64,000 nucleotides of DNA from Gemmobacter fulvus. Lineage in GTDB: Bacteria > Pseudomonadota > Alphaproteobacteria > Rhodobacterales > Rhodobacteraceae. Both the position numbers and the translations under genes were made by a program. This document shows positions 24,796 through 48,726 of the stretch, piece by piece; positions within the stretch are counted from its first letter, which is position 1, and each line of letters opens with the position of its first letter. The stretch lies in NCBI RefSeq assembly GCF_018798885.1, contig NZ_CP076361.1, forward strand, positions 1,951,501 to 2,015,500, in the 5' to 3' direction. The notes beneath the pieces are model-generated. The model saw only the letters and a list, made by a program, of their open reading frames with translations. It had not been told where the DNA came from and did not search any database.

Positions 24796-24820
24796 AATCA
24801 CGACAGGATTGGTAGATTTA
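24796..24820 (-). promoter_or_regulatory. Shared sulfur-island operator, copy D
   Basis: Read on the minus strand the site is TAAATCTAC, a seven-base spacer, then GTCGTGATT. It matches the half-site GTCGTGAT found upstream of three other sulfur-acquisition transcription units with the same spacing. It lies 23 bases before the ATG of the next gene. The left arm is the most diverged of the four copies. Confidence 0.6.
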
Positions 24821-24843
24821 TCTCCATGACAATGGAGGCTGCC

Positions 24844-25377
24844 ATGACTCGTATTCTGACCATCTCGGGGCCCGCCACCCAATCCGGCCTGCTGCGGCAG
24901 ACCGGATTGGGCGCGGCCACGGCAGGCGGGCAAGCCCTGGTGCTGACAGAGCGGCCCGACCCTGAAAATCCGGTTCAGCAATTTCTGGTGGGCGAGGCGA
25001 TCCTTGCCCATCCCGGGCATGCCATCGTGGCGCAGGGCGCCGTTGTGCCCTTGGTGGCGGCGGTTCTGGCGCAGTGGCCGCATCTGGCGCAGACCCGTGT
25101 CTTGCTGGTCGATCCGGTAATCGCGCCGGGGCAGAGCTGTGACCGGCTACCCCGGGCTGCCGCGGTGCAGATCGTGGTGGGCCGCAAGGCCGATGCGCCG
25201 CGCCGCGCGATGGCCCGTCATCTGGCGGCGGAGCTTGGCTGCGCGCTGCGGGATCAACGCCCGCTGGCATCCTTTGGTCAGATACAGGCCGAGCGCGCCC
25301 GAATGATCGCGGCGACCGTGATGCGCCTGTGCCGCTGGCGGGCCTATGCCCGCGCGCCGCAGGCCGGGCCGGTCTGA
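24844..25377 (+). CDS. Uncharacterised protein of the sulfur island
   Basis: A 177-residue protein I do not recognise. It has no signal peptide or membrane segment. It opens MTRILTISGPATQSGLLRQT, is alternating alpha/beta in pattern, and ends with a basic segment (RMIAATVMRLCRWRAYAR). The ATG at 24844 has GGAG six bases upstream; an earlier ATG at 24826 lies inside a CTCCAT-GACA-ATGGAG hairpin. The gene is followed after 84 bases by the FAD protein gene and preceded by copy D of the sulfur operator. A role in sulfur acquisition is inferred from these neighbours. Confidence 0.8.
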   Translation: MTRILTISGPATQSGLLRQTGLGAATAGGQALVLTERPDPENPVQQFLVGEAILAHPGHAIVAQGAVVPLVAAVLAQWPHLAQTRVLLVDPVIAPGQSCDRLPRAAAVQIVVGRKADAPRRAMARHLAAELGCALRDQRPLASFGQIQAERARMIAATVMRLCRWRAYARAPQAGPV

Positions 25378-25461
25378 TCCGTGTTTTGCCCCTCACCCTC
25401 TCTCGTCCCGTGGCCCTGTGGGCTGCGGGACTGAACCCATGATCACAATGGAAAACTCCTC

Positions 25462-26907
25462 ATGTATTTCACCAGCGTTCCAGTCACTCCGGCGGCCGTC
25501 TGTCCTGCCGGTCCTGTCATTGCCATCGTCGGTGGTGGCTATAGCGGTGCGGCGGTCGCCTGGCATCTGGCGCAGGTGCTGAAGGATCGTCCGGGCCGCA
25601 TCGTGGTGTTTGAACCGCGCGCAGAGCTGGGGCGCGGCTTGGCCTATTCGACCCCCGATCCCGATCACCGGCTGAATGTGCCCGATCACCGCATGACATT
25701 GGCGATTGAAGATCCGCTGCATTTCAAGCGCTGGCTCACCTCGGAGGCCGCGCCCTTGCTGGCACCGGGCAGTGCGACATTGGCGGGCGAGATCTTTGCC
25801 CCCCGCGCGGTGTTCGGTCAGTATGTTGCCGCGCATCTGGCACCGCTGATTGCGGCAGGTCGGGTGGTGCATCGGCAAAGCGCGGTCACGCGGATCAGCG
25901 CCACCGGGGCGCAATTCGCGGTGCAGGATGCGTCCGGGGCCATCGTCACGGCGGATCAGGTGGTGCTTGCGGTTTCGCATCCACCCCCGGCCCTGCCGTC
26001 CGAGCTGGCAGCGCTGCGCCACGATCCGGCGCTGATCGAGGATCCCTCTGCCCCCGGCGTGCTGGCGGCGGTCTCCCCGCAAGAGCGGGTGCTGATCGTC
26101 GGATCGGGCCTGACCGCGGCGGATATTCTGTGCAGTCTGATACGGCAGGGGCAGCGGGGCGGGGTGCAGATCCTGTCGCGGCATGGCTGGCGGTCGCAAC
26201 CGCATGGCCCGAAACAGGCGGAAACGACGGCAGAGTTCACCGAAGGTCCGGCACGCACGGCGCTGACGCTGCTGCGCAGGGTGCGCAAGGCGCTGGCGGC
26301 GGATGCGGCGCGCGGGCTGAGCTGGCACGCGGTGTTTGACCGGCTGCGCGCGCAGGGCCCGGCGATCTGGGCGGCGCTGCCGCTGGCAGAGCGCAGGCGC
26401 TTTCTGCGCCATCTGCGCGCCCTGTGGGACATCCACAGATTTCGCATCGCCCCGCAGACGCATGACATCGTAAGCCGGGCCGAGCGCGCCGGTCGGGTGG
26501 AGTTTCATGCGGCGCGGCTGATTGGCGTGGCGCGGACGCCGCAGGGGCTTCTGACGACGATCCGCCCGCGCGGCAGCAGCCATCTGGCGCATCTGACGGT
26601 GGATCGGGTGATCCTTGCCACCGGGCCGGCGCATGGGCAGGTGATTGCGGGCAATCCGGCGCTTGCCAGCCTGCAGGAACAGGGGCTGGTGCAGCCCGAT
26701 CCGCTTGCGCTGGGGATTGCGACGACGCCACAGGGCCGCGCCATCGGGCAGGCGGGTGCTGCCGTGCCGGGGCTGTTCGTCGCTGGTCCTCTGGCGCGCG
26801 GCACCGTGGGCGAATTGATGGGCGTGCCCGAGGTCACCGCGTGGGCAGAGCATCTGGCCCGTCAGTTGGTCGCCGACTTGCCACAGCCCGCAGCGGTTGT
26901 GGGCTGA
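25462..26907 (+). CDS. FAD/NAD(P)-binding oxidoreductase-like protein of the sulfur island
   Basis: Soluble flavoprotein-like protein of 481 residues. Residues 19-40 give the dinucleotide-binding fold VIAIVGGGYSGAAVAWHLAQ, followed by PRAELGRGLAYSTPDPDHRLN, which places it in the HI0933/NAD_binding_9-like group of FAD/NAD(P)-binding proteins. A second nucleotide-binding pattern, RVLIVGSGLTAADILCSL, lies near residue 210. The substrate is not evident. It probably shares a transcript with the preceding 177-residue gene, under copy D of the sulfur operator, and could supply reduced flavin or oxidise a sulfur compound. That function is inferred only. Confidence 0.85.
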   Translation: MYFTSVPVTPAAVCPAGPVIAIVGGGYSGAAVAWHLAQVLKDRPGRIVVFEPRAELGRGLAYSTPDPDHRLNVPDHRMTLAIEDPLHFKRWLTSEAAPLLAPGSATLAGEIFAPRAVFGQYVAAHLAPLIAAGRVVHRQSAVTRISATGAQFAVQDASGAIVTADQVVLAVSHPPPALPSELAALRHDPALIEDPSAPGVLAAVSPQERVLIVGSGLTAADILCSLIRQGQRGGVQILSRHGWRSQPHGPKQAETTAEFTEGPARTALTLLRRVRKALAADAARGLSWHAVFDRLRAQGPAIWAALPLAERRRFLRHLRALWDIHRFRIAPQTHDIVSRAERAGRVEFHAARLIGVARTPQGLLTTIRPRGSSHLAHLTVDRVILATGPAHGQVIAGNPALASLQEQGLVQPDPLALGIATTPQGRAIGQAGAAVPGLFVAGPLARGTVGELMGVPEVTAWAEHLARQLVADLPQPAAVVG

Positions 26908-27026
26908 GGCAGATCCGGTTGGCCGCGCGGCGAATTTCCTTCTCTGCGCGGGTCGGCCTTGGGAAGAAAGCCTCTTTGCAGGCGCAGCAATTTGGAATGG
27001 CCGCAGGCGGAAAGCGCCGCTAGCTT

Positions 27027-27051
27027 TATATCGACAAAGTTAGTCGTGATA
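27027..27051 (+). promoter_or_regulatory. Shared sulfur-island operator, copy A
   Basis: TATATCGAC (27027-27035), spacer AAAGTTA, then GTCGTGATA (27043-27051), a 25-base imperfect inverted repeat ending 38 bases before the metQ start. Identical half-site and spacing occur at three other sulfur units in this window. Confidence 0.7.
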
Positions 27052-27089
27052 GGCGTCGCCTGTCGCTCCAGATCAGAAGGAAACCGACC

Positions 27090-27896
27090 ATGGTATTGAA
27101 ATCACTTGGCCTTGCTGCCGCACTGGCGCTTGCCACCGCCCTGCCATCCTTTGCCGCGCCGCTGAAGATCGGGGTGGTGCCGGGGGCCTATGCCGATGCG
27201 GTGGGCGTGGCCGCCGCCGAGGCGAAAGAGCAGGGGCTGGAGGTGGAGGTGATCGAGTTCAGCGACTGGAACACACCCAACCTTGCACTGGATGCCAAGG
27301 ACATTGACCTGAACTTCTTCCAGCACCAGCCCTTCCTTGAAAATGTCGAGGCCGAAAAGGGCTTTGATTTCAGCGTGGTGGCCCCGGGTATCCTGCAAAA
27401 CTTCGGCTTCTTCTCGCTCAAGCACGCCTCGCTGCAAGACATCCCCGAAGGGGGCAGCGTGGCGATTGCGAATGATCCGGTGAATCAGGGCCGCGGCCTG
27501 TTGCTGCTGGCCAAGGCCGGGCTGATCACGCTGAAAGACGGTGTGGGGTTCAAAGGCACGGTGGATGACATCACCGCCAATCCCAAGAACCTGACATTCA
27601 CCGAGGTTGAAGGCCCGCAGCTGGTGCATGTGACGCCGGATGTGGATCTGGCGCAGGGTTATCCGCATTTCATCGTGGCGTCGGGCGCGTTCGATCCGAC
27701 ATCTGGCCTGATCTATTCCGGGGTCGAGGACAAGATCTTCAACGTGAGCTTCGTCAGCCGCGCGGGCGAAGAGAATGACCCGAAGATCCAGCAATTCGTC
27801 AATCTATTCCACAGCTCGCAGGCGGTGAAGGATCAGATTCACACCTCTTTTGCGGGCAGTGACAAGCTTTATGTCCTTGCGTGGTTGCTGCGATGA
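27090..27896 (+). CDS. metQ: NlpA/MetQ-family periplasmic substrate-binding protein
   Basis: Binding protein of 268 residues for a methionine-type ABC importer. The signal peptide is [20 protein letters not shown] ending at FAA; there is no lipobox cysteine, so it is probably free in the periplasm rather than a lipoprotein. The mature part shows [38 protein letters not shown] and [14 protein letters not shown], typical of the family. It is followed by metN with an ATGA overlap. The ligand could be methionine or another organosulfur compound, since the convergent operon encodes organosulfur monooxygenases and both units carry the same operator. Confidence 0.92.
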
Positions 27897-28996
27897 CCGG
27901 GGCGATTGCGATCGGCTTTCCGACGCAGACCGAGGCGGGGGCGCGTGCCGCCCCGGTCGCCGAGGCGCGGAAATCAGGGGGATCGGTGCGGTTCGAGGCG
28001 CTGGGCAAAACCTATGTCTCGTCGGCGGGCGAGGTGCAGGCCCTGCGGAACGTTACGCTGGAGGTGAGCGCGGGCGAGATTTTCGGGATCATCGGCCGCA
28101 GCGGCGCGGGCAAATCCAGCCTGTTGCGCAGCATCAACCGGCTGGAATCGCCGACCGAGGGCCGCGTTCTGGTGGATGGGGCCGATATTGCCGGTTTGGG
28201 CGAAGCGGGCCTGATGCAGCTGCGCCGCCGGATCGGCATGATCTTCCAGCATTTCAACCTGCTGTCCGCCAAAACCGTGCGCGAGAATGTGGCCCTGCCC
28301 CTGCGCATCGCGGGTGTGCCTAGGCACGAGGTAGACCGGCGCGTCGACGAGGTGCTGCATCTTGTCGGGCTGGAGGGCAAGGAAGACACCTATCCCTCGC
28401 GCCTGTCCGGGGGGCAGAAGCAGCGGGTCGGCATTGCCCGGGCGCTGGTGAACCGCCCCGAGATCCTGCTGTGCGACGAGGCGACCTCGGCGCTGGACCC
28501 GGAAACCACGCTGTCGATCCTGCAACTGCTGCGCGACATCAACAAACGGCTGGGCCTGACCATCATCCTGATCACGCATGAGATGAGCGTGATCCGCGAA
28601 ATCTGTCACCGGGTGCTGGTGCTGGAGCGCGGCCAGATTGCCGAAACCGGCCCGGTCTGGCAGGTGTTCGCAGCACCGCAACATGCCGCGACGCAGGCTC
28701 TGTTGCGCCCGTTGCGGCGAGATCTGCCCGCCGATCTTGCGGCGCGGCTGACGGCGCGGGCGACAAGCGCAACCGATCTTCAGGTGGTCGAGCTGAGCCT
28801 TGAGGGCGATGCCCTGCCGGATCTGGCAGCGCTGGCGCAGCAGTCCGGTGGGCCGGTGCGGCTGGTTCAGGCGCAGGTCGACCCCATTCAGGGCCATGCG
28901 GTGGGCCGGCTGGTGCTGTTGGTCGGCCCGGGGGCCGATCTGTCCAAACTTCCCTATCGCAACAGGAGCCTCGGGTATGTCGCCGCAAATGATTGA
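27893..28996 (+). CDS. metN: MetN-family ABC transporter ATPase with C-terminal NIL domain
   Basis: ATPase of 367 residues. After a roughly 30-residue N-terminal extension come Walker [10 protein letters not shown], the Q-loop segment MIFQHFNLL, the signature [15 protein letters not shown] and Walker [15 protein letters not shown]. The last 90 residues form the NIL regulatory domain, which in E. coli MetN binds methionine and inhibits uptake. The ATG at 27893 overlaps the metQ stop. The unusually long N-terminal extension before the first strand (FEALGKTY) is worth checking as a possible later start. Confidence 0.92.
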
Positions 28997-29630
28997 CCGG
29001 CTGATCAACGCCTTTTTCGACACGGTGCTGATGGTCTCGGCCTCGGCCGGAATCGCGGTTCTGGCGGGCATTCCGCTGGCGGTGTTTCTGGTGACCACCG
29101 GGCCGGGCGGCTTTTTCCTCGCACCGCGCCTGAACCGTGTTCTGGGGGCCATCGTGAACGGCTTTCGGGCGGTGCCCTTCATTGTGCTGCTGGTCGCGCT
29201 GATCCCCGTCACCCGCCTGATCACCGGCACGACAATCGGCGTCTGGGCGGCGGTGGTGCCGCTGTCCATTTCGGCCACGCCGTTCTTTGCCCGCATTGCC
29301 GAAGTGTCGCTGCGCGAGGTCGATCCCGGCCTGATCGAGGCGGCGCAGTCCATCGGGGCAAGCCGCTGGCATATCGTGCGCCATGTGCTGCTGCCCGAGG
29401 CGCTGCCGGGAATCCTGGGCGGTTTCACCATCACGGTGGTGTCGATGATCGGTGCCTCTGCCATGGCGGGCGCGGTCGGGGCCGGGGGCCTCGGCGATGT
29501 GGCCATCCGCTATGGGTATCAGCGGTTTGACACCACGGTGATGGTGGCCGTGATTGTGATCCTCGTCGCTCTGGTCAGCCTCGTGCAGGGCGCGGGGGAT
29601 ACTGCTGTCCGTCACTTGCGGGCGCGGTAG
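28977..29630 (+). CDS. metI: MetI-family ABC permease
   Basis: Inner-membrane permease of 217 residues with about five hydrophobic segments and the ATPase-coupling loop [26 protein letters not shown] typical of the family. The chosen ATG has GGAG nine bases upstream and lies 20 bases inside metN; the reading frame stays open upstream, but that part is the shadow of metN. It completes the metQ-metN-metI importer, whose transcript ends at a bidirectional hairpin shared with the convergent monooxygenase operon. Confidence 0.93.
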
Positions 29631-29660
29631 CGCGGGGGATGCAGCCCCTGTCGCAACGCA

Positions 29661-29688
29661 AAAGGGCCGGGATCACTCCCGGCCCTTT
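29661..29688. terminator. Bidirectional intrinsic terminator between metI and the monooxygenase operon
   Basis: AAAGGGCCGGGA (29661-29672) and TCCCGGCCCTTT (29677-29688) form perfect 12-base arms around TCAC. The A-run and T-run flanking a GC core fit termination in both directions between convergent genes. Confidence 0.85.
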
Positions 29689-29705
29689 CTGCCTGTCGGC
29701 GCCTG

Positions 29706-30559: not shown

Positions 30560-31699
30560 TCAGCTTGCAGAGGTTTGTTTCTGAACATGGCGCACATCAA
30601 AGGCGCCGCCGGTCTGGCTGCTGTCGCGCAGCGTGACCGCGCGTTTGCCCAACAGCGGAAAGACCAGTTCGGCAAAGCGGATGCTTTCTTCCAGATGCGG
30701 ATAGCCCGACAGCACGAAGGTATCGACCCCCAGCGCCTGATAGTCGCGCAGCCGGTCCACGATCTGTTCGGGGCTGCCAACCAGCGCCGTGCCCGCCCCG
30801 CCGCGCACCAGCCCGACACCGGCCCACAGGTTCGGGCCAATTACCAGATTGTCGCGCCGCCCGCCGTGCAGGGCCGCCATGCGCGCCTGCCCGACGGAAT
30901 CCATTCTGGCGTAATTGGCCTGTGCCGCCGCAATCTCGGCATCGGTCAGACGCGAGATCAGGCGATCCGCCTCGGCCCAGGCTTCGGCCTCCGTCTCGCG
31001 GGCGATGACATGCAGCCGCACGCCGAAGCGCAGCGTGCGCCCGTGCTTGGCGGCCCGCGCCCGCACATCCGCGATCTTTTCGGCCACCTGCGCCGGGGGC
31101 TCGCCCCATGTCAGATAGGCATCGACATGCCGGGCCGCGAGATCATGCGCCGCCGAAGAAGAGCCGCCGAAATACAGCGGCGGATGGGGGCGTTGCACGG
31201 CGGGGTGAAAGTTCCGCGCGCCCTTCACCGTGACATGCTTGCCCTCGAAATCCACCGTCTCGCCCGCCATCAGCCTGCGCCAGACGGTCAGGAATTCATC
31301 GGCATTCTCATAGCGGCCATCATGGCTGAAAAACACGCCATCGGCGGCCAGTTCGGTGGCATCGCCCCCCGGCACGACGTTCAGCAGCAACCGCCCGTTC
31401 AGCGCCTGATCCAGCGTTGCCGCCTGCCGCGCCGAGGCGGTCGGCCCCATGATCGAGGTGCGCAACGCCACCAGCAACTTGATGCGCGTGGTCGCGTCGA
31501 TCAGGCTGGCCGCCGTGACCCAAGGGTCCTGGCACGAGGCCCCTGTGGGGATCAGCAGGCCGTCATAGCCCAGCCGGTCGGCCGTCACGGCAATATCGCG
31601 GATATAACCATGCGAGGGCGCGCGGCCAAAATCCGAGGTGCCAAGATAGCGGGTATCGCCCGAGGTGGGCAGGAACCAGAAGATATCGGGCGGGGTCAT
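30560..31699 (-). CDS. SsuD-like FMNH2-dependent alkanesulfonate monooxygenase
   Basis: Luciferase-like monooxygenase of 379 residues, close in pattern to Ssu[21 protein letters not shown] at the N-terminus, [30 protein letters not shown] and the C-terminal [21 protein letters not shown]. SsuD splits alkanesulfonates to sulfite and aldehyde using reduced FMN from a partner reductase. It overlaps the preceding NtaA/DszA-like gene by four bases (ATGA). No SsuE-like FMN reductase is encoded in this operon. The gene symbol is withheld because the substrate may differ. Confidence 0.9.
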
Positions 31700-33084
31700 T
31701 CGGCAGCTCCGAGCAGGGGGGCGCGGGGCCGAAACCCCTGCGCCGTATGGGTGGCGGGAAGGCGGTCGCCCTTGCCGAAAATCCGGTGGCGCAGAGATCC
31801 CTCGCCATATCCGGTCTTGTAGCTGCCGCGCGTTTGCAGTTCGGGCACCACCAGATCGGCGAAATCGGCATAGCTTTCAGGGGCGACGATGCGGGTCAGG
31901 TTGAAGCCGTCGATCTCGCCCTCGCGGATCCAGTCCTCCAGCGTGTCGGCCACCTGAACCGGCGTGCCCACGGCCAGCGGATACCGCCCGCCCAGCGCCA
32001 GCTGGTTCAGCAGCACGCGTTTGGTATAACCCCGGCTTTCGGCGATCTTCGCCGCCGACTGGATGGCATTCGATTGCCCGAAGGGGATCGGATCATCCAG
32101 CCCATAGCGCGCAAAGTCGATGTTCAGCGAGGCCGAGTAATGCGCCAGCCCGGCTTCGGGCGAGCTGACGGCGCGATATTCGGCCAGCTTGTCCTGGGCG
32201 GCCTTGGCACTGTGATCGGCGATGACCGCAATGCCTGCAAGGATGCGCACATCTGCCGGATCACGACCTGCATCGGCCACCGCCTTGCGGATCGACCGCG
32301 CCATGGCCCGTGCCGCCGCCGGATCGGGGGCCGAGATGAACACACATTCGGCATGCCGCGCCGCGAACAGCTGCCCGCGCCCGGAAGTGCCCGCCTGAAA
32401 CAGCACCGGCGTGCGTTGGCGTGACGGTTCCGACAGGTGATAGCCATCCACGCTGTAGAACGGCCCCCGATGGTGGACCGGGTGGATTTTGGCCGGGTCG
32501 GCATAGACGCGCGCGCTGCGGTCGGCGCGCACGGCATCCTCCTCCCAGGATCCCTCCCACAGCTTGTAGAGCACCTCCAGATAGTCGTCGGCCTGATCAT
32601 AGCGCAGGTCATGGCTGCCCTGCCCATCGCGTCCCACCGCACGGGCGGCGCTGTCCAGATAGCCGGTGACGATGTTCCAGCCGATCCGCCCCTCGGTCAA
32701 ATGGTCCAGCGTCGACATGCGGCGGGCAAAGGTATAGGGCGCTTCGTTGTTCACATTGACGGTGACGCCGAAGCCAAGGTGCCGCGTGACCGAAGCCATG
32801 GCCGACACCAGCATCAGCGGATCATTGACCGGCAGCTGCACGCCTTCGCGCGCGGTCACGTCGATGCCCGCGCCGTAAACGTCATAGACGCCCAGAATAT
32901 CGGCCAGAAAGATCGCGTCGAACAGCCCGCGCTCCAGCGTCTTGGCCAGTTCCGTCCAATGGTCCAGCCGCTTGTAATTCACCGAAGTGTCGCGCGGATG
33001 CACCCATTGACCATGGTTGATATGACCAACGCAGTTCATGTTGAACGCATTGACCAGAATGTGTTTTCCAAGAGGTCCGGCCAT
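31696..33084 (-). CDS. NtaA/SnaA/DszA-family FMN-dependent monooxygenase
   Basis: Luciferase-like monooxygenase of 462 residues in the group of nitrilotriacetate, dibenzothiophene-sulfone and dimethylsulfide monooxygenases. Key segments are [48 protein letters not shown] and [20 protein letters not shown], the last being the usual flavin region. The start overlaps the preceding SfnB stop by one base (TGATG), and the stop overlaps the SsuD-like start, so translation is coupled. In this sulfur-island operon it probably oxidises an organosulfur compound such as a sulfone; the compound cannot be read from sequence. Confidence 0.9.
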
Positions 33085-34295
33085 CAGATTGCCCCGTGTC
33101 TGGGAGGGTTGATGCCGTTCAGCGTATGATTGCCGACGGCATGGTATTTCCACCGCACCGGATCATGCAGCGTATGGGTGCGCACATTGCGCCAGTGCCG
33201 GTCGAGGTTGTCAGCGGCCAGCGTGGCCGATGTGCCGGTGAACTCGAACAGCTTCGATGCGGCCAGCAGTCCGGCCTTGGTGGTCAGCACCCGCGCTTCG
33301 GCCACAGCCACCGATGCGGCGGCGACCGTGCTTTCGGTCGGATCGGCAATCGCCGCATCCACCGCGCTGCCCGCCCGCTCCAGCAGGGCTTCGGCGGCGG
33401 TCAGGCGCACGGATACTTCGCCCAGACCGGCGAGAGTCAGCGGATCCTGCGCCGCCGTCTCCACCTTTGCATCGAGCCAGGGGCGGGCACGGTCGCGGAT
33501 GAAGGGCAGGGTGGCGGCGAAGGCCCCCTTGCCGATCCCGAGGTCGATCGCCGCATGGATCAGCTGTGCCACCGGGCCAATCGGCGTGGCGCGTTCAAAA
33601 CTGGTCTGGAACGGCACGACCCATTCCGGCTGCACGGTGACCTGATCGAAGGCCACAGACCCCGATCCGGTCACGCGCTGGCCAAAGCCGTCCCAATCAT
33701 CGGTGATGGTCACACCGGGCGCGCGGCGCGGCACGAATACCAGCTGCTGCACTTCGGCATCATCCACCGCCAGCGTCGGGATCCAATGCGCGTAGATCGC
33801 GCCGGTGCAATAGAATTTCTGCCCGTGCAGCACCATTCCGTCCGGCGCGCGCACCAGCCGGGTGCGGCGTTTGAAATCGCGATGACTGATTTCTGCCAGC
33901 GCATTGCCAAAGCGCAGCCCCTGCAAGGCCTTCTGGAAGAAGAACCGTTGCTGCCCGTCGCGTGCACCGCTGCGCAGCACTTCCAGCGCATAGAAATGGT
34001 TCTGCGGAATCTGGCTGAGAGAGCCATCCGCCGCCGCGATGATCGCCGTCACCTGCGCCAGGGTGACCATCGACACCGCCGCCCCGCCATAGGCGCGCGG
34101 CACGGTGATGCCCCAGAGCCCCGACGCAGAGAAGCGGTCCAGCTCCTGCCATGGCAGGATGCGGTCGCGGTCGCGCTGCAAGGCGCGGGTGGCGAAATCC
34201 GCGGCAAGGCGGTGCGCGATGTCCAGCGCCTCCTGATCCGACCGGATCACATGGGCTTCGGGTGGCGGCTTGGCGGGCGAAGGGGGTGCGGTCAT
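33084..34295 (-). CDS. SfnB-family flavoprotein, second paralogue
   Basis: Acyl-CoA-dehydrogenase-like flavoprotein of 403 residues in the SfnB/DszC group linked to sulfur acquisition. Features: LPWQELDRFSASGLWGITVP, the Q-IPQNHFYALEVLR segment, KFYCTGAIYAHWIPTLA and the family ending RNVRTHTLHDPVRWKYHAVG. The chosen ATG (MTAPPSP) lies two bases after the stop of the first paralogue (TGACCATG). It is clearly related to the neighbouring gene by tandem duplication. DszC-like relatives oxidise a sulfur atom using reduced flavin rather than dehydrogenating CoA esters; which substrate applies here is unknown. Confidence 0.9.
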   Translation of the reverse strand: MTAPPSPAKPPPEAHVIRSDQEALDIAHRLAADFATRALQRDRDRILPWQELDRFSASGLWGITVPRAYGGAAVSMVTLAQVTAIIAAADGSLSQIPQNHFYALEVLRSGARDGQQRFFFQKALQGLRFGNALAEISHRDFKRRTRLVRAPDGMVLHGQKFYCTGAIYAHWIPTLAVDDAEVQQLVFVPRRAPGVTITDDWDGFGQRVTGSGSVAFDQVTVQPEWVVPFQTSFERATPIGPVAQLIHAAIDLGIGKGAFAATLPFIRDRARPWLDAKVETAAQDPLTLAGLGEVSVRLTAAEALLERAGSAVDAAIADPTESTVAAASVAVAEARVLTTKAGLLAASKLFEFTGTSATLAADNLDRHWRNVRTHTLHDPVRWKYHAVGNHTLNGINPPRHGAI

Positions 34296-34297
34296 GG

Positions 34298-35545
34298 TCA
34301 GTTCCATTGATGGCGGGCGGGCAGGGCACCGTTCAGGTGCCAATTGCCCAGCAGGTGGAATTTCCAGCGCAGCGGATCGTGCAGCGTATGCACCCGCGCA
34401 TTGCGCCAGTAGCGGCCCAGATTGGGGCCAGCACGGGTGGTGGCGCTGCCTGCCAGCTCGAACAGCTTTTCCGAGGTTTCCAGCGCCACTTCGCTGGTCA
34501 GGATCTTGGCTTCGGCCACCGCCACCGATGCGCGGGCCGAGGCTTCGGCCGTCACTGGCGCGGCGGCGATGCTGTCGATCAGCCGGGCGGCGCGGCGCAG
34601 CACCGCCTGCGCGGCATGGATGTCGATCTGTAAGCGCCCCACTTCGGCGATGATATAGGGATCGTCCACCGCGCGGCTGACGCCGCTATCCACCCAGGGG
34701 CGCGATTTGTCGCGCAGGAAGGCCAGCGTTTCCGCCAGCGCCCCCAGCGCGATCCCGCTGTCGATGGCAGCCTGAACAAGCTGCGAGACCGGCCCGGCCA
34801 GCCCCGGCACATCGGCCCGTTGCCAGACCGGGATGATCTGTTCTTCGCTGTCAATGCGCACATCCTCGAAGATCACCGAGCCCGAGGCGGTGGTGCGTTG
34901 CCCGAAGGAGGACCAGTCGTCGACCACCCGCACCCCCGGCGCATCATGTGGCACCCAGACCTGCACCGGCCTGCCCTCTTCGTCATTGGCGCGGGTCGGG
35001 ATCCAATGCGCGAACAGTGCGCCGGTGGAATAGAAACGATGCCCGGACAGGCGCAGACCCTGATCGGTGCGGCGTAACCGGGTGGTGTTGTGCGTGACCA
35101 GATTGCGGTTCTTTTCCGGGCCGGCATTGCCGATCCGGTGGCCTGCCAGCACATCGGCAAAGAAGCGGCGCTTCTGGCTGTCGCTTCCGGCCTCGCGCAG
35201 CAGTTGCAGCACGCCGAAATGGTTCTGCGGGATCTGGCCCACCGAACTGTCGGCGGCGCAGATGATCTCGAACACCTCGACCAGCGTCACGTGATCCAGC
35301 CCCGGCCCGCCATGCTCTTTCGGGATCAGGATCGAGCCGAGGCCCGAGGCGGTATAAGCCTCCATCTCGCGCCAGGGCAGGATGCGGCCCCGGTCGCGGT
35401 CAGCGGCCAGTGGCGCGATATGGTCGGCAAAGGCCTGTGCGGCGGCACGTGCGGCGACGGCATCGCGCAGGACAGGCGGGCGGAACGGCGGCAACGGGCG
35501 CAGGCCCACTTCCGCGCCAGAAGAGGGCGTGATCTGGATCGTCAT
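34298..35545 (-). CDS. SfnB-family flavoprotein, first paralogue
   Basis: First gene of the operon, 415 residues, same architecture as the next gene: LPWREMEAYTASGLGSILIP, SVGQIPQNHFGVLQLLREAG, RFYSTGALFAHWIPTRAND and the ending RNARVHTLHDPLRWKFHLLG. Family members are acyl-CoA-dehydrogenase-like flavoproteins induced under sulfur limitation. It begins 23 bases after copy C of the sulfur operator. The two SfnB copies differ throughout, so they probably have separate substrates or form a heteromer. Confidence 0.9.
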   Translation of the reverse strand: MTIQITPSSGAEVGLRPLPPFRPPVLRDAVAARAAAQAFADHIAPLAADRDRGRILPWREMEAYTASGLGSILIPKEHGGPGLDHVTLVEVFEIICAADSSVGQIPQNHFGVLQLLREAGSDSQKRRFFADVLAGHRIGNAGPEKNRNLVTHNTTRLRRTDQGLRLSGHRFYSTGALFAHWIPTRANDEEGRPVQVWVPHDAPGVRVVDDWSSFGQRTTASGSVIFEDVRIDSEEQIIPVWQRADVPGLAGPVSQLVQAAIDSGIALGALAETLAFLRDKSRPWVDSGVSRAVDDPYIIAEVGRLQIDIHAAQAVLRRAARLIDSIAAAPVTAEASARASVAVAEAKILTSEVALETSEKLFELAGSATTRAGPNLGRYWRNARVHTLHDPLRWKFHLLGNWHLNGALPARHQWN

Positions 35546-35568
35546 GGCATTGTCCTGACAAGATTTTC

Positions 35569-35593
35569 AATAACGATTTATCTTGTCGTGATT
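35569..35593 (+). promoter_or_regulatory. Shared sulfur-island operator, copy C
   Basis: AATAACGAT (35569-35577), spacer TTATCTT, then GTCGTGATT (35585-35593), 23 bases before the first SfnB start. An alternative overlapping dyad ACAAGAT (35558-35564) with ATCTTGT (35580-35586) is also present, so the site may be compound. Confidence 0.65.
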
Positions 35594-35721
35594 ATGCGCA
35601 GCCCCGGCCCCCGAGGCGATTCCAAAGCCGGAGGCGGAAAGAGATCAATCTTTCCCCAAGGGCGGCGCTGGCGAGGGATTTCTTATCCGCCACCCCCTGC
35701 CCAACGGTATCACGGGCTGCG

Positions 35722-37110: not shown

Positions 37111-37111
37111 C

Positions 37112-37210
37112 TTCGCAACCTTCGCAAATCACAGCGCAATCCTTCGCAATATCACGCTTTTTCAGGACTTTAACGGGTGTTGGATTCACGGATAGCTGAT
37201 TTTGCAAATC
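37112..37210. promoter_or_regulatory. Candidate ScfR-type operators between the regulator and prpD
   Basis: TTCGCAA occurs at 37112-37118, 37121-37127 and 37143-37149, with a related GCGCAAT near 37134-37140, and GATTTTGCAAATC at 37198-37210. The known PccR motif of R. sphaeroides and the RamB motif contain TTTGCAAA-like halves, so these are plausible binding sites for the adjacent regulator, both for autoregulation and for prpDCB. Confidence 0.55.
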
Positions 37211-37261
37211 GACTGAAGCCAAAGATGCAGCGTCGGCCCAAGACAGCGAAGGACATTCCAA

Positions 37262-38773: not shown

Positions 38774-38783
38774 GGAGAGCGGG

Positions 38784-39953
38784 ATGAGCGGTTCCATGGT
38801 GAAACCGAAGAAATCGGTGGCGCTGTCAGGGGTGGTGGCGGGCAATACCGCGCTGTGCAGCGTGGGCCAGACCGGCAATGATCTGCATTACCGGGGGTTT
38901 GACATCCTCGACATTGCCGAGGCCTGCGCCTTTGAAGAGGTGGCGCATCTGCTGCTTCATGGCAGTTTACCCACCAGCGCCGAGCTTGCGGCCTACAAGA
39001 TCAAACTTCAGGCGCTGCGCGGTCTTCCCCTGGCCGTGCGGCAGACGCTGGAGGCGATCCCGGCTGCGGCGCATCCCATGGATGTGCTGCGGTCGGGTGT
39101 GTCGTCGCTGGGCTGTGTGCTGCCCGAAGCGTCGGATCACAATACGCCTGCCGCCCGTGATATTGTCGACAGGTTGATCGCGGCGCAGGGGTCAATGCTG
39201 CTTTACTGGTATCATTTTGCCCAGCATGGCCGCCGGATCGAGGTGGAAACCGCGGATGACACCATCGCCGGGCATTTCCTGCACCTGCTGCATGGCAAGC
39301 CCGCGACGGCGGATCAGTTGCGCGCCCTGCACATCACGCTGAACCTCTATGCCGAGCACGAGTTCAACGCCTCCACCTTCACGGCGCGCACCATCGCGGG
39401 CACGGGATCGGATATGTATTCCTGCATCGCGGGGGCCATCGGCGCGCTGCGCGGGCCAAAGCACGGCGGCGCGAACGAGGCGGCGTTTGAAATCCAGAAG
39501 CGTTATGCCAGCCCGGATGAGGCTGAGGCGGATATTCGCGCCCGGGTCGCCGCCAAAGAGGTGATCATCGGCTTTGGCCATCCCGTCTACACGCTGTCGG
39601 ATCCGCGCAATGTGGTGATCAAGCGGGTGGCGCGGCACCTGTCGGTGCGGGCCGGATCGCAGAAGATGTTCGACATTGCCGAGCGGATCGAGGCGGTGAT
39701 GGCCGATGCCAAGGGCATGTTCCCCAATCTCGATTGGTATTCTGCCGTCTCGTATCATCTGCTGGGCGTGCCCACCGCCATGTTCACGCCGATCTTCGTG
39801 ATCGCGCGCAGCGCAGGCTGGGGCGCGCATGTGATCGAACAGCGGCAGGATAACAAGATCATCCGACCGTCGGCCCATTACATCGGCCCTGACAACCGCT
39901 GTTTCCTGCCGCTTGACCAGCGCGGCGGGCTGCTCAATGCCCCGGTGGAGTGA
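38784..39953 (+). CDS. prpC: 2-methylcitrate synthase
   Basis: Citrate-synthase-family enzyme of 389 residues that condenses propionyl-CoA with oxaloacetate. Features: [40 protein letters not shown] with a catalytic histidine, [17 protein letters not shown] and [14 protein letters not shown]. The ATG at 38784 has GAGGAG upstream; the frame stays open before it, but that is a shadow of prpD. PrpC rather than GltA is assigned from position between prpD and prpB. Its stop is three bases before prpB. Confidence 0.93.
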
Positions 39954-39956
39954 CCC

Positions 39957-40886
39957 ATGCCCTATCTTAAGTCTGACGCCCTGCCCGATACCCCGGCAGG
40001 GGCCCGGTTCCGTGCCGCTCTGGCCCGGCCCGGCATCCTGCACCTGCCCGGCGCACAGAATGGCATGGCTGCCTTGCAGGCCAAGGCGGCGGGGTTCGAT
40101 GCGCTGTATCTGTCCGGCGCGGCGATGACGGCCTCGATGGGGCTGCCCGATCTGGGCATCATCACGGTGGATGAGGTTGCGTTCTTCATCCGCCAGATCA
40201 CCCGCGCAACCGGCCTGCCGCTGCTGGTCGACGGGGATACCGGCTATGGCGAGGCGCTGAATGTCATGCATATGGTCAGGACATTCGAAGATGCGGGGGC
40301 CGGGGCCGTGCATCTGGAAGATCAGCTTCTGCCCAAGAAATGCGGCCATCTGAATGACAAGAAGCTGGCTGCGCCGCAGGATATGGCGACCAAGGTGGCG
40401 GCAGCGGCGCGCGCCACGCGGCATCTGGTGGTGATTGCCCGCACCGATGCGGCGGCCAGCGAAGGCATCGACGGCGCGGTTGCCCGCGCGCAACTCTATG
40501 TCGAGGCCGGGGCGGATGCGATTTTCCCCGAGGCGCTGAGCTCTGTCGAGATGTTCCGCGAGGTGCGGGCGCGGCTGCCCGGTGTGAAGCTTCTGGCGAA
40601 CATGACCGAATTTGGCCGCACTCCGATGCTGACCGCGCAGCAGTTTGAAGAGCTGGGCTATGACATGGTGATCTGGCCGGTGTCATCCTTGCGGGTGGCG
40701 AACAAGGCGCAGGAAAGGCTTTACGCGGCGCTGCGCCGGGATGGCGCGACGCAGGCAATGATCCCCGAGATGCAGACCCGCGCCGAATTGTATGACCTGA
40801 TCGGGCTGTCCGCCTTTGAGGCGCTGGATCAGTCCATCGCGCAATCGGTGGTGCCGGACTGGGAGCGCGGCACGTCTGTGGCCTGA
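39957..40886 (+). CDS. prpB: 2-methylisocitrate lyase
   Basis: Isocitrate-lyase-family enzyme of 309 residues that cleaves 2-methylisocitrate to pyruvate and succinate. It has LYLSGAAMTASMGLPDLGI, LPLLVDGDTGYGEALNVMH and the active-site loop LPKKCGHLNDKKL, with the KKCGH catalytic motif. It completes the prpDCB operon. No aconitase or methylaconitate isomerase gene lies in the operon, so a housekeeping aconitase is expected to provide the middle step. Confidence 0.95.
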   Translation: MPYLKSDALPDTPAGARFRAALARPGILHLPGAQNGMAALQAKAAGFDALYLSGAAMTASMGLPDLGIITVDEVAFFIRQITRATGLPLLVDGDTGYGEALNVMHMVRTFEDAGAGAVHLEDQLLPKKCGHLNDKKLAAPQDMATKVAAAARATRHLVVIARTDAAASEGIDGAVARAQLYVEAGADAIFPEALSSVEMFREVRARLPGVKLLANMTEFGRTPMLTAQQFEELGYDMVIWPVSSLRVANKAQERLYAALRRDGATQAMIPEMQTRAELYDLIGLSAFEALDQSIAQSVVPDWERGTSVA

Positions 40887-43390: not shown

Positions 43391-43441
43391 CCCGGCGTTG
43401 AGTGAGGCCCTTCCCTCTGTCCTTAAAGGAGACGGTTCGAA

Positions 43442-44677: not shown

Positions 44678-44696
44678 AACAATCGTTCACATTGTA

Positions 44697-44722
44697 AAAG
44701 GGCGGCCCTCGGGCCGCCCTTT
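44697..44722. terminator. Bidirectional terminator between the polyamine genes and cysA
   Basis: AAAGGGCGGCCC (44697-44708) and GGGCCGCCCTTT (44711-44722) form 12-base arms around TC, with A-run and T-run on each side. It fits termination of the convergent transcripts. Confidence 0.85.
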
Positions 44723-44728
44723 CTGGTG

Positions 44729-45448
44729 TCAGGCGGTGATGAAATCCCGCACGAACTGGCTGGCCGGGCGGGCACGGATGTCCTGCGGCTTGCCGATCTG
44801 TTCGATGCGTCCCATTGACATCACCACAACCAGATCGGCCAATTCCATCGCCTCGTCCTGATCATGGGTGACAAACACCGTGGTCAGGCCGGTTTCATCG
44901 TGAATGTCACGCAGGCCCTGCCGCAGTTCCTTGCGTACCTTGGCATCCAGAGCGCCGAAGGGTTCATCCAGCAGCAGCATCCGCGGTTCGATGGCCAAGG
45001 CACGGGCCAGCGCCACGCGCTGCCGCTGCCCGCCCGACAACTGGCTGGGAAAGCGCGCGCCGATCTGCGGCAACTGGATCAGCTCCAGCAGCTTTGTCAC
45101 CCGCCGCGCGACCTCGGCCTTGGCCGGGCGTGCGCCGCGGGGGCGGGCGTTCAGGCCATAGGCGATGTTTTCAAACACCGTCATATGGCGGAACAGGGCG
45201 TAGCTTTGGAACACGAACCCGGCCCTGCGCTCCTGCACGGTCAGGTTGGTCGCATCCTCGCCGTCAAACAGCACCCGGCCCGAAGTGGGAAATTCCAGCC
45301 CGCCCAGAATACGCAGCAGCGTGGTCTTGCCCGAGCCGGACGGCCCGAGCAACGCCACCAGCGCCCCCGACGGAATCGCGAGCGAGACAGGTTGCAGGGC
45401 GGCGGTGGCCCCGAAGAGTTTGGAGATTTCGTCGATCTCGATATGCAT
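44729..45448 (-). CDS. cysA: Sulfate/thiosulfate ABC transporter ATPase, short form
   Basis: ATPase of the sulfate importer, with Walker [31 protein letters not shown], signature [19 protein letters not shown] and Walker [21 protein letters not shown], typical of CysA. It is only 239 residues, whereas CysA proteins are usually about 340-360, so the C-terminal regulatory region is absent. The frame is intact and ends in FVRDFITA. It is the last gene of the sbp-cysT-cysW-cysA operon. Confidence 0.92.
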
Positions 45449-45503
45449 GTCGCGGTCCTTTCGGAGTGCGGGCAGGGCAGCCCCGCCGGGTGAACTGAGG
45501 ATC

Positions 45504-46361
45504 TTAATGGCGATGCGTGGCGGCCAGCGCGTCGGCGTGGCGGATTTCCAGCGCGGTTTTCAGCAGCAGGGTCAGCAGGGCCAGCGCGGTCAGCAGGGCC
45601 GACATCGAAAAGGCGGCAACCGAAAGATATTCGTTATACAGCATCTCGATGGTGATCGGCATGGTGGCGGTCTGGCCCCTGATCTTGCCCGAGACCACCG
45701 CAACCGCCCCAAACTCGCCCATGGCCCGCGCATTGCAGAGCAGCACGCCATAGAGCAGCGCCCAGCGGATATTGGGCAGGGTGACCGTCCAGAAGGTGCG
45801 CAGGCCTGAGGCCCCCAGCGTCAGCGCCGCCTCTTCCTCGGCGCGGCCCTGTTCGACCATCACCGGGATCAACTCGCGCGCCACAAAGGGGAAGGTCACG
45901 AACATCGTGGCCAGCGCGATGCCGGGCAGGGCAAAGACAATGGGAAAGCCCTGCGCCACCAGCCAGCCACCGGCAAGCGAATTGGCCCCGAACATCAGCA
46001 CGATGCACAGGCCCGCCACCACCGGGCTGACCGAAAACGGCAGGTCGATCAATGTGATCAGGAAGGCCTTGCCGCGAAAATCGAATTTGGTGATGAACCA
46101 GGCGGCGGCGATGCCGAAGGCCGCATTCAGCGGCACCGAAATTGCGGCGATCAGCAGCGTCAGCTTGATGGCTGACAGCGCATCACGGTTGCCAAGGCTG
46201 GCAACCGCAGCCCCCACCCCCTTGGCCGTGGCTTCGGCAAAGACCACCAGCAGCGGCGCAAAGACCAGCACCACGACACCCAGCACCGTCACACCGATCA
46301 GGGCAAGGCGGGCCAGCGGTGTTTCTTCGGTGGCAGGGCGGAATTGGGTTGTATCAGACAT
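45504..46361 (-). CDS. cysW: Sulfate/thiosulfate ABC transporter permease CysW
   Basis: Inner-membrane permease of 285 residues with about six hydrophobic segments and the CysW-type coupling region [24 protein letters not shown], then [22 protein letters not shown]. The chosen ATG (MSDTTQF) overlaps cysT by eight bases; the frame remains open upstream as the shadow of cysT. Known family role: transmembrane path for sulfate together with CysT. Confidence 0.93.
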
Positions 46362-47190
46362 ATCCGATCCTCCGACGGCTCCAGACCTGGATGAGGTTGA
46401 TGACCAGCAGCATCGCAAAGCTGATCAGCAGCATGGCGATGCCGATGGCGGCGGCGGCGTCATAGTTGAATTCTTCCAACTGGATCACGATAAGCAGCGG
46501 TGCGATCTCGGTCACCAGCGGGATATTACCCGCGATGAAGATGACACTGCCATATTCGCCCACTGCCCGCGCGAGGGCGAGCGCAAAGCCGGTCAGGGCC
46601 GCCGGGGCCAGCATCGGCAGGATCACCCGGCGCAGCGTGTGCAGGCGGCTTGCGCCCAGCGTGGCCGAGGCCTCTTCGACCTCGCGGTCGATTTCCTCCA
46701 CCACCGGCTGCACGGTGCGTGTGACGAAGGGCAGGCCGACGAAGATAAGCGCGATGAAGATGCCCCATTGCGTATAGGCTATCTTCCAGCCGATCTCTTT
46801 CGCCAGCCCGCCGAAAAAGCCGTTGGGGGCGTAAAGCGCGGTCAGGGCAATGCCTGCCACCGCCGTCGGCAGGGCGAAGGGCAGATCGACCGCCGCATCC
46901 AGAATGCGCCGCCCCGGAAAACGATAGCGCACCAGCACCCAGGCCAGCAGCACGCCAAACACCAGATTGAACAGCGCGGCCAGCAGCGAGAGGCGGAACG
47001 ACAGGAACAGCGCGGCCCAGACGCGCTCGCGGTTCACCGTCTCCCAGATATTGCCAATGCCAAAGCTGGCGCCCTTCAGAAGAAGGGCGCCGATGGGCAG
47101 AAGCACGACGAGGGAGAGCATCGTGAGGGTGATCCCCATGGAAAGCCCGAGTCCGGGCATGGGAGAGCGGTGGATCAAAGGTCTGCCCAT
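46354..47190 (-). CDS. cysT: Sulfate/thiosulfate ABC transporter permease CysT
   Basis: Permease of 278 residues with six predicted membrane segments. Family marks: DLPFALPTAVAGIALTALYAPNG, WGIFIALIFVGLPFVTRTVQPV, EEASATLGASRLHTLRRVILP and GEYGSVIFIAGNIP. The ATG (MGRPLIH) follows the sbp stop after seven bases with GAGG upstream. It forms the heterodimeric channel with CysW. Confidence 0.93.
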   Translation of the reverse strand: MGRPLIHRSPMPGLGLSMGITLTMLSLVVLLPIGALLLKGASFGIGNIWETVNRERVWAALFLSFRLSLLAALFNLVFGVLLAWVLVRYRFPGRRILDAAVDLPFALPTAVAGIALTALYAPNGFFGGLAKEIGWKIAYTQWGIFIALIFVGLPFVTRTVQPVVEEIDREVEEASATLGASRLHTLRRVILPMLAPAALTGFALALARAVGEYGSVIFIAGNIPLVTEIAPLLIVIQLEEFNYDAAAAIGIAMLLISFAMLLVINLIQVWSRRRIGYV

Positions 47191-47197
47191 CTGAACC

Positions 47198-48400
47198 TCA
47201 CTTCGTCGTATAGATCTGGTCGAAGATGCCGCCGTCGCCGAAATGTTCGGGCTGCACCTTGGCCCAGCCACCGAAATGGGCGATGTCGACCAGTTCAAGC
47301 TGCGGGAAGCGGGCCACATCCTCGGGCGCGGCCTTGGACGCATCCCAGGCACGGTAGAAGTGCTTGTAGGCCAGCGCCTGCCCTTCGGGGCTGTAGAGGT
47401 AGTTCAGATAGGCATCGGCCAGTTTGCGCTGCTCATCCGACTTGATGTTGCTTTCCACCAGCGCCACCGGCGGCTCGGCCAGCACCGACACACTGGGCAC
47501 AACGATGTCGAACTCGCCCTCGCCCAGTTCCTTCAGGGCCAGATAGGCCTCGTTTTCCCAGGCGAGCAGCACGTCACCGATGCCACGCTGGGCAAAGGTG
47601 GTGGTGGAGCCGCGCGCGCCGCTGTCCAGCACCGGCACATGCTTGAACAGTTCACCGACAAAGGCCTGCGGATCCTTGCCGTTCTTTTCGGCCCAGGCCC
47701 AGGCGGCCAGATAGTTCCAGCGCGCGCCGCCGCTGGTTTTCGGGTTGGGCGTGATCACCTCTACCCCATCCGCCACCAGATCGCCCCAGTCCTTGATGCC
47801 CTTCGGATTGCCTTCGCGCACCAGAAACACGATGGTCGAGGTATAGGGCGACGAGTTGTGCGGCAGTTTGGTCTGCCAGTCGGCAGGCAGTTTGCCCGCC
47901 TGGGCGATCTTGTCGATGTCAGAGGCCAGCGCCAGCGTGACGACCTGCGCCTCCAGCCCGTCGATCACCGACCGCGCCTGCGAGCCAGAGCCGCCATGCG
48001 AGGTTTCGATGGCCGGGGCGTCGTTGCCCTGCGCGGCCCAATAGGCGGTGAAGGCCTCGTTGAATTCGCGGTACAGCTCGCGCGTCGGGTCATAGCTGAC
48101 GTTCAGCAGCGCCTCGGCCCGTGCCCCCTGCGGGCTGGCGATGGTCAGCAGCGCAAGGGCGAGTGCCGAGAGCGCGCTTTTGAAGAACCGTGGCACCGGC
48201 CAGCCCGTCAGCCGTTCCCGACCGGTTTCGATGGTGACGCGGCCGTCCAGATGTTCAGCGACCTTGACGCCTTGCGCCGAGATATGAGCCCCGAGGGTGA
48301 TGGTGGTGAGCATGGAAGTCTCTTTCGATGGTTGCGGCAGCGCTGCGGCGGCACGGATGGGGCGGAACGGGGCAAGCCCGAAAATGGTATGTGCGGTCAT
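47198..48400 (-). CDS. sbp: Periplasmic sulfate-binding protein with unusual N-terminal extension
   Basis: Sulfate-binding protein. The mature part shows [58 protein letters not shown] and [20 protein letters not shown], all typical of Sbp/CysP. The hydrophobic signal ([20 protein letters not shown]) is not preceded by an ATG; the nearest starts are GTG at 48196 (332 residues, the family length), ATG at 48313 (371) and ATG at 48400 (400), the last overlapping the stop of the upstream small gene (ATGA) with GGAG before it. I give the longest as the span. The 68-residue extension is either an in-frame leader protein or a fusion. cysT follows in the operon. Confidence 0.88.
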
Positions 48401-48654
48401 TTGCGGGCCTCCGGGCCAAGGGCATCGACGCGGGCTTCCCAGACGCTGGGGTCGCGGCCATTCAGCAATTCGGCGGCGGCTTCGGTGGGATTGCGCGTGA
48501 GGATGGTCAGCGGCGTGCCGTTGATCCGATGCACGGCGCCGGTGCGGCGGTCGATCAGGCGGACGGCACAGACACGCGGCAGGCCTTGGGGCGGCATCGG
48601 CATGGCGCCGATTCGGCCCGTGGTGGGGGAACCGAAAGCAATGGCTGCGGTCAT
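48397..48654 (-). CDS. Small uncharacterised protein, first gene of the sulfate operon
   Basis: An 85-residue protein I do not recognise: [20 protein letters not shown] at the start, then [21 protein letters not shown] and [31 protein letters not shown]. There is no signal or membrane segment. The ATG at 48654 has AGGAG six bases upstream; an ATG six bases earlier sits directly on that site. Its stop overlaps the downstream ATG by ATGA. The downstream frame also starts MTAxxxFG, hinting at a duplicated leader. It starts 47 bases after operator copy B. Confidence 0.65.
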
Positions 48655-48701
48655 CTGCATCTCCTCTGTCCTGTCGGTGGCCCTGTGCCATCCGATGCTT
48701 T

Positions 48702-48726
48702 AATATCGACACAAGTAGTCGTGTAT
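48702..48726 (+). promoter_or_regulatory. Shared sulfur-island operator, copy B
   Basis: AATATCGAC (48702-48710), spacer ACAAGTA, then GTCGTGTAT (48718-48726), between the sulfate operon and the divergent Lrp/AsnC gene. Same half-sites and spacing as the copies upstream of metQ, the SfnB operon and the 24.8-kb gene pair. Confidence 0.7.

Follow-up and report, generated by a model that had tools for sequence, protein, structure and literature searches.

The window analysed here is a 64 kb stretch of the Gemmobacter fulvus genome (Rhodobacteraceae), which is 4.68 Mb in size; the window lies on a contig of 3.38 Mb. It carries four units of predicted sulfur genes: a hydrolase-like gene with a flavin adenine dinucleotide (FAD) protein gene, a metQNI-type ATP-binding cassette (ABC) transporter, an sfnB operon, and a small gene followed by the sulfate transporter genes sbp-cysTWA. 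The last unit is divergent from lrp, a gene for an Lrp/AsnC-family regulator. An inverted repeat precedes each unit and is examined here as the candidate operator of a sulfur regulon. An earlier note on this DNA had placed four 25-bp copies at 24796–24820, 27027–27051, 35569–35593 and 48702–48726, and both the coordinates and the architecture of two halves around a seven-base spacer were confirmed. Its statement that the half GTCGTG is the same in all four copies held when the sites were oriented to read GTCGTG. It had put the copies 23–47 bases before the first genes; the measured gaps are 23, 38, 23 and 47 bases, the first of which assumes a start at 24844, with ATGs at 24826 and 24832 also possible.

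In the common orientation the sites read AAATCTAC-CAATCCT-GTCGTGAT (24796), ATATCGAC-AAAGTTA-GTCGTGAT (27027), ATAACGAT-TTATCTT-GTCGTGAT (35569) and ATATCGAC-ACAAGTA-GTCGTGTA (48702). The left half is thus ATATCGAC only at 27027 and 48702 and is degenerate at the other two. By position, the four sites have 2, 0, 2 and 2 mismatches to ATATCGAC-N7-GTCGTGAT, and elsewhere in the window the closest match, which is within a predicted gene, has 3. The exact word GTCGTGAT was rejected as evidence because it is too weak: it occurs 4 times in the window where 1.43 would be expected, a count reached in 7 of 100 shuffles.

A symmetric matrix of 31 columns was built from 26 sites in eight other genomes of the genus, with no site from the window or its genome (the relatives-only matrix). 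Because these training sites, in the lrp-sbp and hydrolase promoters of the relatives, were picked by eye for likeness to the window motif, the matrix is blind to the window copies only and not to the motif. It found six sites in the window, all scoring at least 19.6 bits, and the seventh-best score is 4.4. The four copies are therefore real, and two more, A2 and B in Table 1, had been overlooked. No copy was seen in non-sulfur intergenic regions of the window, as had been claimed. The aligned sites are better described by the consensus AATCACGAY-N7-RTCGTGATT with A/T flanks to about ±13, a palindrome of 23–27 bp.

Table 1. Predicted operators, promoter and genes in the window. Operator coordinates give the 31-bp matrix frame, and operator scores are those of the relatives-only matrix; R1 is the sequence model described in the text.
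Feature	Position	Strand	Remarks
Operator 1	24793..24823	-	Before diverged hydrolase and FAD-protein operon; 24.4 bits; R1 E = 0.02 genome-wide (in R1 training set)
Operator 2	27024..27054	+	Before metQNI; 19.6 bits; top R1 match in genome (in R1 training set)
Operator 3	35566..35596	+	Before sfnB operon; 28.6 bits
Operator 4 (A1)	48699..48729	+	Before small gene and sbp-cysTWA operon; 28.2 bits
Operator A2	48735..48765	+	36 bp from A1; 28.4 bits
Operator B	48869..48899	-	Before lrp; 22.8 bits
Predicted sigma70-like promoter TTGAAA-N18-GATATT	48702..48731	-	Spacer filled by operator A1; 9/12 match; 1 found against 0.6 by chance
First gene of unit 1	24844..25377	+	Diverged relative of the RBBP9/YdeN-type serine hydrolase that precedes the FAD-protein gene in relatives
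FAD/NAD(P)-binding protein (NAD_binding_9), second gene of unit 1	25462..26907	+	PF13454, 140.8 bits
metQ-metN-metI type ABC transporter	27090..29630	+	PF03180, 221 bits
Organosulfur operon sfnB-sfnB-ntaA-ssuD	30560..35545	- (leftward)	TIGR04022 (SfnB, twice), TIGR03860, TIGR03565, all over curated cut-offs
85-amino-acid protein gene, then sbp-cysT-cysW-cysA sulfate ABC transporter	44729..48654	-	TIGR00971, TIGR02139, TIGR02140, TIGR00968, over cut-offs
Lrp/AsnC-family regulator gene	48948..49430	+	Divergent from sbp; PF01037, PF13404; putative regulon member and rival candidate binder

The whole genome was scanned with R1, a sequence model built from 43 sites (150 of 206 candidates scored). 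At E ≤ 10 it returned ten rows representing eight distinct sites: the six of the window, one before msuE-sfnG and one before an SLC13-type permease gene. Seven promoters are covered, since the window sites fall at the four reported promoters and at lrp. Seven of the eight sites were in the R1 training alignment and the permease site alone was new; the relatives-only matrix gives it 22.8 bits and the msuE site 22.2 bits. SfnG scores over its cut-off and MsuE slightly under (206.9 against 212.5). The permease has the domains CitMHS, TrkA_C and Na_sulph_symp, the last weakly above cut-off, and its role in sulfur is presumed. A pattern scan at up to 3 mismatches gave 49 matches genome-wide against 9 for the backwards-read pattern. 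Thirty of the 49 were read as loci, and 24 of these lie within predicted genes; of the other six, four are those of the window, one is the msuE site and one, which R1 did not return, overlaps the start of a gene read as AraC-like. The in-gene matches at up to 3 mismatches, such as L009 (C1:580436), were treated as background.

Conservation was examined in 80 named loci, the best 80 of 543 confirmed Lrp relatives from a profile search of genome contigs with an Lrp alignment, and thus chosen for holding Lrp. They come mostly from Rhodobacteraceae genera or Rhodobacterales, including Paracoccus denitrificans DSM 413, Fuscovulum blasticum, several Gemmobacter and Tabrizicola. Two of them, from Gemmobacter aquaticus (L080) and G. 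caeni (L092), are the same over 3471 bases as the training loci L034 and L035, and were excluded from the matrix count and included in the counts of upstream sites and pair spacings below. No other training locus had a match of at least 95% over 300 bases among the 80. In the remaining 78 loci (1.44 Mb, about 88% coding) the matrix found 231 matches of at least 14 bits, 226 of them intergenic; 50 column-shuffled matrices averaged 3.34, and none gave more than 8. Gene calls came from a simple script that scores codons and was trained on the genes of the window, and annotation came from BLASTP against window proteins; hence what is 'intergenic', where a gene starts and what is 'not a sulfur gene' are approximate here.

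The sites stand before the same genes from locus to locus. A site was present within 260 bp upstream of lrp in 68/79 loci, before sbp or its small upstream gene in 47/58, before the RBBP9-like hydrolase gene in 28/32, before msuE in 4/9 and before ssuD in 2/4. A gene for an Rrf2-family regulator (rrf2) was found in 49 of the 80 loci, and 43 of the 49 have a site at most 300 bp upstream, usually common with lrp. Where two sites lie less than 120 bp apart the spacing is 36 bp in 46/56 pairs. A spacing of 37 bp was seen in the tandem pairs of two other genomes, G003 (L333:1473-1540) and G002 (L297/L305).

Within the genus, the sbp-lrp intergenic region of other genomes has three conserved palindromes. 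Sites also precede relatives of metQ (90–91% identity), msuE (59–81%), sfnB (79%), sbp (76–80%) and the first gene of unit 1 (28–39%), and of lrp and the SLC13-type permease gene, the likeness to the permease gene being judged by eye. Orthologous promoters thus keep their sites, each in at least one other genome of the genus, and operators are scarce away from the relatives' sulfur promoters. The earlier note had read the repeat as the operator of a sulfur regulon. With the corrected consensus and six window sites, this reading is supported, and neither of the two refuting outcomes named in the note was seen: sites recur at orthologous promoters, and in the genome-wide scan the matches were not random, all eight R1 sites standing at sulfur or plausibly sulfur promoters.

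A TauD-family dioxygenase gene (L077:1693-2604; PF02668) behind the Gemmobacter tilapiae sulfate transporter has its own site. The protein scores under the taurine dioxygenase equivalog cut-off, and the site may extend the regulon to taurine-type substrates.

Two regulators, Rrf2 and Lrp, are candidates for binding the operator. Their distribution was compared with that of the motif in 199 genomes of the family, one per genus and at least 95% complete, with 36 candidate sites scored per genome. The cut-offs were E ≤ 0.05 for the motif, 180 bits for Rrf2, and 165 bits for Lrp plus one genome, G033, at 146 bits with sulfur neighbours. The Rrf2 cut-off sits in a wide gap (next scores 110 and 95 bits) and the Lrp cut-off does not (next 157). 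By these cut-offs 22 genomes are positive for the motif, a number of which about ten would be expected by chance over 199 genomes if the rough E-values were exact, 24 for Rrf2 and 20 for Lrp. The motif is present in 20/24 Rrf2-positive genomes and in 2/175 Rrf2-negative genomes; p-values for this association ignore shared ancestry. When 28 of 45 rows of motif matches were read, 25 lay at lrp/rrf2, at msuE, at the hydrolase gene or a FAD gene, or at sbp or the small gene before it.

All 20 Lrp-positive genomes are also Rrf2-positive; no genome has Lrp without Rrf2 at the cut-offs used. Four genomes have Rrf2 without an Lrp ortholog (G082, G106, G145 and G115, top Lrp matches 108–120 bits), and three of these have sites. 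In the strict scan G082 has one 30 bp, centre to start, before a hydrolase-FAD operon, and G106 has two, 36 bp apart, in a gap where no gene was recognised. A weaker G106 site (18.5) is 106 bp before an sbp-like gene. In a laxer scan G145 has sites of 32.8 and 19.9 between an ABC ATPase gene and a presumed solute-binding protein gene, and another near a contig end.

Rrf2 homologs were also sought in other families. A sample of 289 genomes of the class gave 16 homologs besides that of the window's own genome, with 42–55% identity. In 12 of the 16 loci sbp, cysT, cysW or cysA is within the 1.5 kb flanks. The matrix found 12 matches of at least 16 bits in 9 of the 16 loci (54.7 kb in all); 200 shuffled controls had 0.35 on average and always fewer than 12. 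Ten of the matches lie before sbp, cysT or rrf2 and the other two are in L154 and L270. In four of these genomes (G358, G251, G490 and G503) no Lrp relative reaches E ≤ 1e-25, and each has a site-like palindrome before sbp, rrf2 or cysT. In G358 the sole place returned by R1 at E ≤ 0.5 genome-wide lies between rrf2 and sbp.

The rrf2 gene of the window's own genome is outside the window (C1:1148712-1149158). It is the ortholog, at 78% identity, of the rrf2 of the named loci, where, in those read, the gene lies between sbp and lrp. One Rrf2 protein, P0007, matches PF02082 with 114.2 bits (cut-off 30) and TIGR00738 with 97.4 (cut-off 73.3); the protein of the own genome scores 96.4 with TIGR00738. 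Four cysteines, C-x8-C-x2-C-x5-C, are invariant in 25/25 aligned relatives. The four-cysteine subfamily spans several alphaproteobacterial families (e.g. L061:9346-9795 and L150:1501-1965).

The candidate is far under the equivalog cut-offs of CymR, IscR, RirA and NsrR, the nearest being CymR and IscR. CymR of Bacillus subtilis and Staphylococcus aureus resembles it in Rrf2 fold by profile (NF047409, 62.9 and 62.6 bits, cut-off 195; PDB 2y75, E = 6e-13, second to the Rrf2 protein 4cic). CymR is a cysteine and sulfur regulator; the candidate would have a similar job if, as predicted, it binds the operators at the sulfur genes here. Unlike CymR, the candidate has four invariant cysteines, an alphaproteobacterial host and other targets. 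IscR of E. coli and Rhodobacter sphaeroides is also of the Rrf2 family, and the candidate scores 59.9 and 56.0 bits against the IscR cut-off of 207.55. The cluster ligands of IscR are spaced C-x5-C-x5-C, a spacing that the candidate does not share.

The conserved columns of the operator extend to about ±13 around N7, which fits the geometry of Rrf2-type operators: these are described with fragments of 23 bp (NsrR) and 29 bp (hyA) and with a 7-bp centre, and near ±10, at A/T positions, the minor groove is contacted by wing arginines in NsrR and in IscR (PMC9338935). The 7-bp centre, the half-sites and the A/T positions near ±10 are all consistent with the Rrf2 family. The E. coli iscRB probe has GAC-N7-CTC (PMC12594620), the same spacing as GAC-N7-GTC here. 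In R. sphaeroides, IscR sites overlap or lie very near the -35 and -10 boxes. IscR has Fe-S and iron genes as targets, in R. sphaeroides through a 19-bp Iron-Rhodo-box, and in Rhodobacteraceae it has one cysteine against four in the candidate (PMC4618611).

Known sulfur regulators outside this family differ in operator or in targets. The candidate regulon would do the same job as CysB and Cbl, the LysR-type gammaproteobacterial regulators that control uptake of sulfate, sulfonates and related compounds in sulfur starvation, and its operator is without T-N11-A at matching positions. A LysR/CysB-type site was accordingly rejected: at the T position of the aligned dyad the frequency of G is 0.76 and that of T is 0.21. 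The methionine-cycle regulators SahR and SamR are a further class, with targets in methionine and S-adenosylmethionine metabolism and not in sulfur scavenging. The SahR regulons of Proteobacteria are likewise comparative-genomic regulons of sulfur amino acid genes (PMC4239095).

The position of the operator at sbp bears on the direction of control. The spacer of the predicted sbp promoter is filled by A1 (Table 1), and -35-like TTG[CA]AA and -10-like G[TA]TATT boxes flank A1 in 50 aligned sequences (the own genome and 49 named loci). The TTG of the -35 box is 96–100% conserved among the 50, though two of its bases are outside the matrix. A protein in this spacer would block RNA polymerase, and the model is therefore one of a repressor; the position suggests repression. 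The simple promoter scan covered sbp, metQ and sfnB, and the overlap is a prediction at one promoter.

We read the repeat as the operator of a regulon for sulfur acquisition in Rhodobacteraceae, looser in related Alphaproteobacteria, and consider it likely that an Rrf2 dimer binds it and represses the genes behind it. The sequences show the sites and their conservation, what the regulon contains, the link with Rrf2 and, at sbp, the overlap with a predicted promoter. We infer Rrf2 as the binder, repression as the direction and sulfur status as the signal. In this genome operators stand before seven units, for sulfate ABC import, metQNI-type transport, sfnB/ntaA/ssuD, msuE-sfnG, the hydrolase-like and FAD proteins, the SLC13-type permease and lrp. 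The Rrf2-family dimer with its four invariant cysteines would bind the palindrome. When sulfur is sufficient, Rrf2 would occupy the stretch from -35 to -10 and keep RNA polymerase out. In sulfur starvation it would be released and the scavenging genes would come on. The signal may, by analogy with CymR, be cysteine together with a partner of the CysK type, or it may be a cofactor carried by the four cysteines.

Several results weigh against this model. At metQ the promoter scan returned no sigma70-like promoter, and at sfnB its sole match was on the wrong strand. One Rrf2-positive genome, G115, has no site even in the laxer scan. In the genus, rrf2 lies away from the cluster and its own promoter is siteless in the loci read, while lrp adjoins the cluster and has a site. 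The co-occurrence of Rrf2 and Lrp in 20 genomes leaves two or three genomes that separate them. G199 has neither protein and yet has two strong palindromes of operator shape (29.3 and 33.6; L253:1498-1528 and L182:1498-1528), at aldolase- and methyltransferase-like genes that were not read as sulfur genes. These are possibly the similar operator of another regulator, and operator shape alone is therefore no proof of the regulator. In G003, which is 87% complete, a tandem pair is upstream of sbp and close Rrf2 and Lrp orthologs were not found. The distant loci were chosen for holding rrf2, and the 16 homologs fall in only 10 genera. Seven of the 16 have no matrix match of at least 16 bits, and 15 of the 16 genomes have no R1 match at E ≤ 0.5 genome-wide. 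A motif-positive, Rrf2-negative genome, G149, has a site of 24.8 with no gene called nearby, and this site may be chance.

Because of its position, Lrp was favoured at first as the binder, autoregulated and controlling the sulfur genes. In the genus lrp is divergent from sbp, with a conserved site some 70 bp ahead of the lrp start, Lrp relatives of 53–63% identity adjoin cysA or a FAD gene, and the motif is present in 18/20 Lrp-bearing family genomes in the strict scan, the other two, G116 and G232, which are also Rrf2-positive, having sites in the laxer scan. Lrp was ranked second because of the co-occurrence and distant-family tests, and we now regard it as an unlikely binder. Operators were found where no Lrp ortholog is present (G082 and G106, plus G145 in the laxer scan), the 199 genomes hold none with Lrp alone, and the palindromes beside sbp, rrf2 or cysT in G251, G358, G490 and G503 occur without an Lrp relative. 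Lrp homologs read in three other distant genomes are not beside sulfur genes. Dimer sites of Lrp are usually 15 bp, and the conserved operator is longer than that. On balance, Rrf2 appears the better candidate binder and Lrp looks like a member of the regulon.

Joint action of both proteins on the same operators, as repressor and antagonist or activator, or action of a third regulator such as a LysR-type protein, for which no systematic search was made, is in our judgement quite improbable. It would suit the frequent arrangement of rrf2 and lrp as divergent neighbours with one common site and the paired sites 36 bp apart at sbp. The consensus does not have the LysR hallmark T-N11-A, with G dominating at the T position, and a regulator present in most family genomes would not explain why the motif is so rare in genomes without Rrf2. 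Chance or a mobile repeat with no operator function has almost no probability: although the 8-bp word by itself is mildly enriched in the window, that explanation is refuted by the genome-wide R1 result, with only eight sites at E ≤ 10, all at named promoters, by the 15-bit gap to the next window score and by the sites at orthologous promoters.

The genes beside the sites vary in how firmly they can be named. The product of the first gene of unit 1 has no Pfam or NCBIfam match and was related to the L061 hydrolase by a single BLASTP comparison (31% over 117 amino acids, E = 1e-07). Because the nucleophile motif GHSLG is absent and AQGAV is in its place, this product may be a non-catalytic version of the hydrolase. 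The top NCBIfam matches of the metQNI genes are MetQ, MetN and MetI, all under curated cut-offs, and the substrate of this transporter is therefore uncertain. The 85-amino-acid protein (48400-48654) has no Pfam or NCBIfam family match; it is conserved and precedes sbp here and in many related genomes. Seven genomes of the genus have lrp orthologs of 77–82% identity. A methylcitrate cluster, prpD, prpC and prpB with a RamB-like regulator (35722-40886), lies between the sulfate transporter genes and the sfnB operon and is without an operator. An open reading frame of about 2,800 codons (16272-24692) lies just upstream of the sulfur cluster.

Neither this operator nor an Rrf2 protein that regulates sulfate and organosulfur uptake in Alphaproteobacteria was found described in the open-access literature searched, which was available in part and had subscription papers and RegPrecise outside it. 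Nor did that literature yield an account of sulfur sensing in Rhodobacteraceae or of their choice between sulfate and organic sulfur (sulfonates, sulfones). The family is important for the cycling of sulfur in aquatic habitats and wastewater. The system would be an Rrf2-type sulfur regulon that acts like that of CymR yet fails the CymR membership cut-off. With a defined operator, seven units in the regulon and one leading candidate for the regulator, it is open to test in lab strains. A wider proposal, which we put forward tentatively and with less than even confidence, is that the four-cysteine Rrf2 subfamily may be the master repressor of sulfur scavenging in several alphaproteobacterial families, sensing via a cluster, metal or persulfide, with Lrp captured into the regulon in Rhodobacteraceae. 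If a cofactor is carried, the four-cysteine signature would represent a new sensor type in the Rrf2 family. If the proposal is true, the four-cysteine Rrf2 would gauge sulfur by the state of a sulfur-containing cofactor.

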